From the NCBI GenBank assembly GCA_019309815.1, contig JAFDFO010000002.1:1-38615 (forward strand): 38,615 nucleotides of DNA. The letters run 5' to 3'. The translations under genes were made by a program, and so were the position numbers. The stretch's first letter is position 1, and each line of letters opens with the position of its first letter. Shown here in pieces: positions 29,349 to 33,818 of this stretch. The notes under the pieces were generated by a model that searched no databases, was not told the origin of the DNA, and saw only the letters and a list, made by a program, of their open reading frames with translations. This DNA is from Deltaproteobacteria bacterium (GTDB taxonomy: Bacteria; Desulfobacterota; Desulfobacteria; Desulfobacterales; C00003060).

Positions 29349-29909
29349 GTGAGTGTGAGAGTCACCGGCGGAACTTTGAAAGGAAGAAAACTTCACCCGT
29401 TGCGCGGCATGACAATCCGACCTACCTCTGACTACCTGAAGGAATCCATTTTTAGCATCCTTGCAGGTAGTGTGGAAGATGCAGCGGTGCTTGATCTATT
29501 TGCGGGTACCGGCAGCCTCGGGATAGAAGCTCTTAGCCGGAGAGCCGCAACAGCTGTGTTCGTTGACAGTGCCCCTCAAGCGATAAAAACGGTTATTCAA
29601 AACGTTCAAACCTGCTCCCTCGAAGCACAGAGCACAATATTGAAACGGAATGTATTGCGAGGACTGAGTTTCTTAGGGTCAATTGACTACCTCTTTGATC
29701 TCATCTTCATCGACCCTCCGTACGATAAAGGTTGTGTCAAGAAAACCTTGCAACTCCTGGGCCACAGCAGGTCAACATCAGATGTGGCTACTATTGTTGT
29801 GGAGCACAGCAAGCGAGAGACATTGCCGGAGAAGGTAGATTGCTTCACTCTCAGTGACCAGAGGCATTACGGGAAAACGCTTGTTTCATTCTATAGCACT
29901 GTGCTATGA
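29349..29909 (+). CDS. rsmD: 16S rRNA (guanine966-N2)-methyltransferase
   Basis: RVTGGTLKGRKLHPLRGMTIRPTSDYLKESIFSIL...LDLFAGTGSLGIEALSR...FIDPPYDKG. Confidence 0.92.
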   Translation: MSVRVTGGTLKGRKLHPLRGMTIRPTSDYLKESIFSILAGSVEDAAVLDLFAGTGSLGIEALSRRAATAVFVDSAPQAIKTVIQNVQTCSLEAQSTILKRNVLRGLSFLGSIDYLFDLIFIDPPYDKGCVKKTLQLLGHSRSTSDVATIVVEHSKRETLPEKVDCFTLSDQRHYGKTLVSFYSTVL

Positions 29910-29949
29910 GGCAAGCTATTGGCCATCTGCATATGCATCAAATGCTAAA

Positions 29950-30136
29950 CTAAGGGCTTGCGCAAGAATAACTTCACAGAATTGGCGCTCATATTTGGGT
30001 CGGATTTGGCCGATCCGATTGAGTAAAACCACAGTAATGGCCGGCTATTTCGCGGATTTTGCGAATGAGGTATCGGTCAAAGATGGCCTGAAGCTGGGAT
30101 GCCACAATGTTAAGTTATTTTTGAGCGAGCCCTAAG
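29950..30136. mobile_element. ~187-bp MITE-like / structured intergenic element
   Basis: Terminal imperfect inverted repeats: ctaagggcttgcgcaagaataacttcaca (29950-29978) vs tgttaagttatttttgagcgagccctaag (30108-30136), about 24 of 29 complementary; internal hairpins including TTCGC-ggatttt-GCGAA. Confidence 0.55.
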
Positions 30137-30147
30137 GTGGAGACAAC

Positions 30148-30633
30148 ATGGGTAAGATAGCTGTATATCCTGGCTCTTTTGATCCTGTAACCAACGGACA
30201 TTGTGATGTGGTCCAGCGGAGCCTCAATCTTTTTGACAAAATCATCATCGCTGTGGCAACAAATGGAACCAAGGATCCCCTCTTCACTATCGAGGAGCGC
30301 CTGGAGATGCTCAAAGAAACCTTCAAGGAGATACCGGGAGTTGAGGTGGATTCCTTTGACGGACTCCTGGTCGAGTATGCCGCGGAGCGACGTGCCGATG
30401 CCATTTTACGGGGCCTTCGTGCAGTGTCTGACTTTGAGCATGAGTTTCAGATGGCGCTAATGAATCGGAAGCTCAACAGGACGGTTGAGACGGTTTTCCT
30501 CATGACAGGCTTGCGCTGGATATTCATTAGCTCCTCCATCATCAAGGAGGCCGCTCGATTTGGAGGAGACACGCGGGGCATGGTTCCTGACAACGTCTCC
30601 CAGAAGCTAAGGGAAAAATTCGGTAAGGCGTAA
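30148..30633 (+). CDS. coaD: phosphopantetheine adenylyltransferase
   Basis: KIAVYPGSFDPVTNGHCDVVQRSLNLFDKIIIAVATN...ISSSIIKEAARFGG. Confidence 0.95.
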   Translation: MGKIAVYPGSFDPVTNGHCDVVQRSLNLFDKIIIAVATNGTKDPLFTIEERLEMLKETFKEIPGVEVDSFDGLLVEYAAERRADAILRGLRAVSDFEHEFQMALMNRKLNRTVETVFLMTGLRWIFISSSIIKEAARFGGDTRGMVPDNVSQKLREKFGKA

Positions 30634-31656: not shown

Positions 31657-33818
31657 ATGGCAATATCTCTTTCACCAAATGCGTTGGTGGTTCTTGAACG
31701 GCGTTATCTGAAGAAAGACCGAAGTGGAAAAGTGGCGGAGACGCCAGAGCAGCTATTCAAAAGGGTTGCGCACAGTGTGGCCGCAGCTGACGAGAAATTC
31801 GATCCCGAGGGCGATATTGAGAGAACCGAAAAGGCTTTTTTCAAGTTAATGGCGGAGTCGGTTTTCCTTCCTAATTCCCCCACCCTGATGAATGCAGGCC
31901 GAAGACTGGGACAGCTGGCGGCCTGTTTTGTCCTTCCCGTTGAGGACTCAATTGACAGCATATTTGAAGCACTCAAACACACGGCCATGATTCATAAGAG
32001 CGGGGGAGGTACGGGTTTCTCCTTTTCTCGTGTGCGGCCGGAGAACGATCTCGTATCGTCTACGCAGAAGATATCGACTGGTCCCATTTCCTTTATGACC
32101 GTCTTTGATGTGGCCACCGAGACGGTAAAGCAGGGAGGAACCCGGCGAGGGGCCAACATGGGAATCCTCAGGGTGGACCATCCGGATATCGAGGCCTTCA
32201 TTCGAAGCAAGACCAATCACGCAAGACTGAACAACTTCAATATCTCGGTAGCTATTACCCAACCATTCATGAAAGCCCTCGCGTCCGGCAAAAACTACAA
32301 CCTGATCAATCCAAGAAACCACAAGGTATGGCAGAGCGGGGAGCCAGGCATCATTTTCTTGGATCATATCAACAGAGCCAACCCCACCCCTCAACTGGGT
32401 GAGATCGAGGCAACGAATCCTTGTGGTGAACAGCCGTTGCTGCCGTATGAATCTTGTAATCTCGGCTCGATCAATTTGTCTCAGATGATAACCGACGGCA
32501 AATTGAACAAGACGAAACTGAGACACAGCATTCACACTGCGGTTCACTTTCTTGACAATGTAATAGAAATAAACAAATACCCGCTGCCCGAAATCAAAAC
32601 TATTAGCAAAAAGACACGAAAGATCGGTCTGGGAGTCATGGTCTGGGAGTCATGGGATTTGCCGATATGCTTATCAAGCTCGGGATCCCTTATGATTCAA
32701 AGAGGGCTGTGCAGAAAGCTGAACAGGTCATGGGCTTTATGTTGCGCGAAGCTAGGAAGGCTTCAAGCGAACTGGCCAAGAAGAGGGGGAATTTTCCCGC
32801 CTACGAGGGAAGCATTTTTGACGATCCCAAGACGCCGCATATGCGTAATGCAACTGTAACCACAGTTGCTCCCACAGGTACCATCAGTATCATCGCAGGA
32901 TGTTCCAGTGGCGTGGAACCCATCTTCGCAGTAGCTTATGAGCGCATGGTCCTTGATGGAGAGGCCCTCTCTGAGATGCACCCGCTCTTTGAAGAAGTGG
33001 CGAAGCAAAACGGTTTTTTCAACAAAGAACTGGCCGAGCAGGTTGCTGAAACCGGCTCCATACGGCAAATCAAAGGGATCCCTGGCAAGATCAAGCGTCT
33101 TTTTGTGACCGCTCATGATGTTGCACCCGAGTGGCATGTTCAAAGCCAAGCAGCTTTTCAGAAATATACGGATAACGCAGTGTCCAAAACCGTCAATTTC
33201 CCTCATGATGCTACACCAGAAGACGTAGAAAAGGTGTACAGGCTTGCCTACAAAACCGGATGCAAGGGTGTTACCATCTATCGTTATGGCAGCCGCGATC
33301 AGCAGGTACTCAATCTCGGCAGGCACCAGACGTCGGAAGATAGAGAAACAGGGTCCAAACCCGGCGAGTCAGGGATCGTGCCGCGGGTTCGCCCTATTCG
33401 GACTTCGGGTGTTACCGAGAGAATCAATACGGGTTGCGGTAAGCTCTATGTTACCATCAACGAAGACGAGAAAGGTATTTGTGAAGTATTTGCTCAGATG
33501 GGGAAGACCGGGGGGTGTGCCTCTTCTCAGATCGAGGCGGCCGGAAGGCTCATATCCCTGGCCTTGCGAAGTGGGGTTAAGGTGGAAGCCATTCTTAAGC
33601 AGATTAGCGGTATTCGCTGCCCCTCACCCATATGGCAGAATGGGAAAATGGTACTTTCCTGCCCGGATGGCATTACTCAGGTCATAAAGAACTACACCCA
33701 AATCAGCACCACTGACATGCCTGCTATGATGGGTGCCTGCCCTGACTGCGGCGGTGCATTGGAACACGAAGGTGGATGTCTGGTGTGTCGTTCCTGCGGG
33801 TTTTCTCGTTGCAGCTAG
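31657..33818 (+). pseudogene. nrdJ: B12-dependent (class II) ribonucleoside-diphosphate reductase, frameshifted
   Basis: ORFs 31657-32859 and 32652-33818 are consecutive parts of one NrdJ ([46 protein letters not shown]-like C-terminus). The reading frame breaks at an exact 14-bp tandem duplication (32626-32653). Confidence 0.88.
32626..32653 (+). repeat. exact 14-bp tandem duplication inside nrdJ
   Basis: GGTCTGGGAGTCAT (32626-32639) immediately repeated at 32640-32653. Removing one copy restores [17 protein letters not shown]. Confidence 0.95.

Follow-up and report, generated by a model that had tools for sequence, protein, structure and literature searches.

A MITE family of Desulfobacterota with a structured core kept across the phylum, found inserted upstream of coaD

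Bacterial MITEs, short (under about 600 bp) and gene-less non-autonomous DNA transposons, have mostly been regarded as local IS debris, and whether the palindromic ones act as RNA is an old question. Dispersed, non-autonomous inverted-repeat hairpins also occur in bacteria in the form of the REPIN/RAYT elements. ERIC (or IRU; 127 bp) of the enterobacteria is, like the element that we describe here, a palindromic, mostly intergenic and multi-copy MITE found across genera, whose transcript forms a long stem-loop (PMC2229807, PMC10969869). The Correia or NEMIS elements of Neisseria (107/155 bp) share with our element the MITE organisation, terminal inverted repeats (TIRs) of about 24 bp and size variants arising from internal deletion, and they form a hairpin RNA for which processing by RNase III has been proposed (PMC2229807). 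As for the IS1031 and IS427 groups of the IS5 family, they share its TNA target and 3-bp repeat, the IS1031 target being given as 5'-TNA-3' (PMC12016507), and an IS5 element presented below has ends of the same type.

Here we report a new MITE family of this known type, with an unusually conserved structured core, one copy of which lies between rsmD and coaD in the window, that is, the whole stretch of 38,615 nucleotides that was analysed (Table 1). The original prediction had placed at this locus a 187-bp element (29950-30136) with inverted 29-bp ends, nested complementary blocks and no convincing ORF, and had read it as either a MITE or a large structured RNA. The element is real, and 24 of the 29 end positions do match; its first and last 4 bases turned out to be flank plus target duplication, leaving a true element of 179 bp. 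The nested blocks (TTTGGCCGAT/ATCGGTCAAA) were located in the inner stem of the fold formed by the + strand, which is the strand with the conserved fold, and the sole ORF that crosses the element (29854-30135), which runs over the end of rsmD in a different frame, is not credible. Further along the window, a ribonucleotide-reductase-like gene (31657-33818) consists of two overlapping ORFs (31657-32859 and 32652-33818), which suggests a frameshift near 32650, either real or due to an assembly error.

Table 1. Coordinates of the element and its neighbours in the window
Feature	Position	Strand	Remarks
MITE proper	29954..30132	+	179 bp, near full-length imperfect palindrome; defined from copies, boundaries, fold and alignment
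Left 3-bp target-site duplication, TAA	29951..29953	.	Within target C-TAA-G; from family flanking 3-mers
Right target-site duplication, TAA	30133..30135	.	From family flanking 3-mers, identical in 72/89
Left TIR, GGGCTTGCGCAAGAATAACTTCACA	29954..29978	+	Family consensus GGGCTCGCGCAAAAATAACTT
Right TIR	30108..30132	-	Reads GGGCTCGCTCAAAAATAACTTAACA on the - strand
Inner structured core	29985..30102	+	Model R1 positions about 36-152; kept across Desulfobacterota, while the outer arms diverge
Apical hairpin, AATGGCCGGCTATT	30036..30049	+	Site of the ~22-bp insert of other copies
rsmD, upstream gene	29349..29909	+	ORF; gene name as in the original prediction
coaD, downstream gene	30148..30633	+	ORF; start codon at 30148, 12 nt past the right target-site duplication; gene name as in the original prediction

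The element is repeated in its host and beyond. BLAST against the host genome, the check proposed with the prediction, returned 8 full or near-full copies (81-100% identity) plus fragments; some of these copies carry the apical insert and one has an internal deletion. Among 96 relatives, DNA searches found matches in 38 and a covariance model in 52, the copy counts from the model being lower bounds, with at most 27 candidates scored per genome; phylum-wide, the element is present in 37 of 395 Desulfobacterota genomes. Counts of the end sequence exceed 100 in some genomes and reach 123 + 145 in G061. The matches include Desulfobacterales bacterium C00003060, from the genus of the window (G002, MAXP01000344.1), and C00003106, from the same order (G084, MAXM01000260.1), the latter being a Seep-SRB1g strain in order C00003060 (PMC10553843). 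Searches of phages, plasmids and viral contigs with the element gave no match. Many unrelated genes adjoin the copies, and all four arrangements occur (>E> 29, <E< 16, >E< 17, <E> 8), the excess of same-strand over antisense tandem arrangements (29 versus 16) being suggestive only.

Collapsed copies of about 37-45 bp, which keep both ends and lack the hairpin body, were found in G061 (L277, L289, L292, L303), G069 (L203) and G153 (L367, L370), and one-sided truncated copies (L006, L166, L194, L290, L298) have their broken end close to a gene start; the frequency of the ~40-bp stubs, together with these truncations, suggests that the palindrome often decays. The G061 stubs look like deletions between ATTTT direct repeats. 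Other repeats were also seen: a second, nearly perfect palindrome family of about 158 bp has the same terminal inverted repeats in G069, G019 and G010 (e.g. L195, L199, L205); the copy at L176 5720-6130 (S7086C20) is interrupted by a different palindromic repeat of about 180 bp (GACTTCGTAAAAAGTCC...); at L299, CRISPR-like direct repeats (GGTTCATCCCCGCACGCGCGGGGAACAC) adjoin a truncated copy; and at L123 5119-5305 host sequence on either side of the copy forms a longer inverted repeat (tcttctccaa / ttggagaaga).

The boundaries come from the trinucleotides just outside GGGC...GCCC, compared in 89 distinct copies from Desulfobacterales genomes. These are identical on the two sides in 72 copies (TAA/TAA in 37, TTA/TTA in 33), as against a mean of 34.6 and a maximum of 48 in 1000 shuffles, and they are preceded by C in 65 of the 89 copies and followed by G in 59, giving a preferred target of C-TWA-G. 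Since the middle base is repeated directly (A/A or T/T), the match is not the product of an extended pairing of the stem, which would give the opposite; the element therefore has the limits given in Table 1, within a TAA duplication and a CTAAG target.

Empty sites complete this picture. In the rsmD-coaD gap, the element is absent from all 18 other genomes of the genus in which the gap is readable; in the genome nearest in layout (G015) the gap measures 51 bp, and the window minus the element and one duplication would leave 56 bp. Other, unrelated palindromic inserts occupy this gap in some relatives (L311, L315, L318, L313, L325). When the flanks of copies from G018 were joined and compared with the sister genome G010, two gapless matches of 285 bp and one partial match were obtained, and further G010 contigs added one imprecise case. 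The filled and empty members of three pairs (L388, L384 and L398 versus L023, L052 and L173) agree in length. One base sets the trinucleotides apart in 3/3 pairs: the empty site, with its single copy, shows G and the filled site A (TGA/TAA, TTG/TTA, TTG/TTA). This difference (n=3) is not explained by simple duplication and possibly reflects conversion of the target on insertion or an excision scar. The element is mobile: its copies are dispersed, its TIRs conserved, a 3-bp TNA duplication flanks it and it is absent from orthologous sites in sister genomes. The first of the two predicted readings, a MITE, is thereby upheld.

The second reading, a structured element, also holds and is compatible with the first. 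Over its whole length the + strand forms a single hairpin (-84.8 kcal/mol, z = -7.8, with 0/200 shuffles as good), against only -53.9 kcal/mol (z = -3.3) for the - strand. RNAalifold predicted 65 pairs from 30 copies, with 95.5% of cells paired and two-sided changes in 33 of the pairs, and none of 500 shuffles reached any of these measures; the sequence is thus multi-copy and covarying, not single-copy and devoid of covariation. The strand bias was counted as parsimony events on a FastTree tree of 100 copies (midpoint root), from alignment rows that were fitted to a model of the structure and so lean towards pairing: single changes from a Watson-Crick pair led 140 times to G-U and 51 times to A-C, whereas in unpaired columns the corresponding substitutions stood at 91:97 (Fisher p 7e-7), so that the bias is limited to paired columns. 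Because the predicted structure may omit A-C columns, the count was repeated with opposed mismatches included, giving 140:55. A phylum-wide replicate from outside the genus, without the window copy and L149, gave 80:19 in paired versus 79:66 in unpaired columns, and G-U pairs are kept at fixed columns of the alignment. The bias is similar in both orientations relative to the left neighbour (63:20 and 15:6, with low power); it may thus be a property of the element rather than of a host gene, and it gives no preference to a role linked to a single neighbour. Pure correction of a palindrome would treat both strands alike, so selection appears to act on how one strand folds, as RNA or as single-stranded DNA. 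Rfam gave no match at the gathering score and only chance-level matches (E 3.6-4.8) at a permissive threshold, and a consensus scan found no promoter- or terminator-like site.

The conservation is uneven along the element. In the phylum set, mean identity is 71% in the inner core of about 117 nt, which is kept across Desulfobacterota, and 53% in the outer arms, where GGAACGGGG.., AGAACTTGTCCGTAAATAA.. or GGAGGTTAGCC.. stand in place of GGGCTCGCGC.. while the TWA flanks are mostly kept; some cores have no recognisable arms. A coding core (the frame reads '..IEQNHR.S...RGFCD') was considered and rejected by inspection, as an in-frame TGA recurs at C-G/U-G wobble changes. As a tentative idea, to which we give somewhat less than even odds, the core may be a functional folded module of RNA or single-stranded DNA and not the passive filler of a deleted IS, with arms that are swapped for others or adapted to the IS5-type transposase that happens to be present.

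Searches with the DDE families PF01609, PF13359 and PF13586 yielded no autonomous element with the exact TIR in the host genome or in the complete genome G069, and the unpaired TIR ends of G069, G061 and G153 all proved to be solo ends, stubs or truncated copies. A pair of ends that spans 949 bp (L166), considered as an IS, resolved into two separate truncated or short copies around an unrelated gene (by eye, a glycerophosphodiester-phosphodiesterase-like ORF). Scanning transposase loci for TNA-flanked inverted ends led to L258, an element of 925 bp in G078, from the same order, with the TIR GTGCTTATCCGTAAATAA (18/18), TTA on both sides and two overlapping ORFs that match NF033580 (IS5 transposase), DUF4096 and DDE_Tnp_1. 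Its end matches the MITE ends of G461 at 17/20 positions, those of G373 and G153 at 15/20 and that of the window copy at only 12/20; by inspection, one G153 end (L369, GGGCTTATCCGTAAATAAAA) is 19/20 identical to the right end of the IS. The matches of L258 to MITE ends, together with the TNA target and 3-bp repeat of the IS1031 group, make mobilisation by an IS5-type transposase, probably acting in trans, the best inference rather than a demonstration.

Taken together, we consider, with a probability of about 0.85, that the element is a MITE served in trans by an IS5-type transposase and that the fold of one of its strands is selected. An IS5-family transposase (IS1031/IS427-like, with DUF4096 and DDE_Tnp_1) would act on the ends in trans and paste the element into TNA; the conserved strand, which we infer to be RNA rather than single-stranded DNA, would arise when transcription of neighbouring genes reads through the element, and cells might process or tolerate its compact hairpin in the manner of ERIC and NEMIS; alternatively, that strand could be an intermediate made of single-stranded DNA. 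At coaD, the element would sit in the 5' untranslated region of the coaD-containing transcript. Against an IS5-driven MITE count the want of an autonomous partner with the exact TIR, the 12/20 match of the window end to L258 and the trinucleotide mismatch in all three filled/empty pairs. An alternative is a selfish element that transposes via a folded single strand, whether REPIN/RAYT-like or by another such route, with single-stranded DNA as the conserved form. A fold specific to one strand whichever way the flanking genes point, a long palindrome and a partner not found in the same genome would suit it. A DDE transposase is, however, indicated by the 3-bp direct duplication with its correlated middle base and by the relative from the IS5 family whose ends are of the same type, and duplication of the target is not expected of RAYT elements, so we regard this route as unlikely.

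The strong hairpin, the covariation, the G-U bias on the coding strand and the position 12 nt before coaD would also fit a coaD leader with a cis-regulatory function, or another structured non-coding RNA, that has its fixed place here and is only incidentally repeated. A device specific to coaD is contradicted by its absence in 18/18 other genomes of the genus with a readable gap, and the copies beside unrelated genes in every orientation, the target duplication with its empty sites and the failure to find an Rfam family make this reading very improbable. Template switching can perfect palindromes, and the collapsed ~40-bp stubs suggest deletions in these ones; the covariation and near-perfect arms might thus have come from hairpin-templated correction during replication and not from selection. 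Such correction would yield Watson-Crick pairs with no preference for G-U on one strand, whereas the bias of 140:51 was replicated and its G-U pairs sit at fixed columns, and we give this account a low probability. The case that selection acts on one strand's fold is, for this MITE family, a good one.

The coaD insert is in itself unremarkable; it is explained as the insertion of a mobile element, and its annotation as a leader of coaD should be avoided. The interest lies in the phylum-wide structured core, for in this MITE family a covarying core has been kept across the phylum while the ends drift, and a role of palindromic MITEs as RNA becomes directly testable in one natural system, to which bacteria that partner methane-oxidising archaea also belong (Seep-SRB1g strain C00003106).

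In spite of the similarities listed at the outset, the family differs from each of the described systems: (i) ERIC/IRU has another length, TIR and host group, and TA at its termini where the present family has a 3-bp TNA duplication, the two being set apart by description. (ii) Correia/NEMIS, which differs in length and host group, has been described from one genus, in contrast to a core that here extends across a phylum. (iii) REPIN/RAYT units are shorter, and target duplication is not a feature expected of them. (iv) IS5 elements code for a transposase and the coaD element for nothing, and the TIR of L258 agrees with that of the window copy at only 12/20 positions. (v) PIF/Harbinger and the Tourist MITEs, which are related to IS5, have a TWA duplication, a CTWAG-like target and a G-rich start of the TIR; the resemblance lies in these features, and their hosts are eukaryotic, whereas those of the present family are bacterial.
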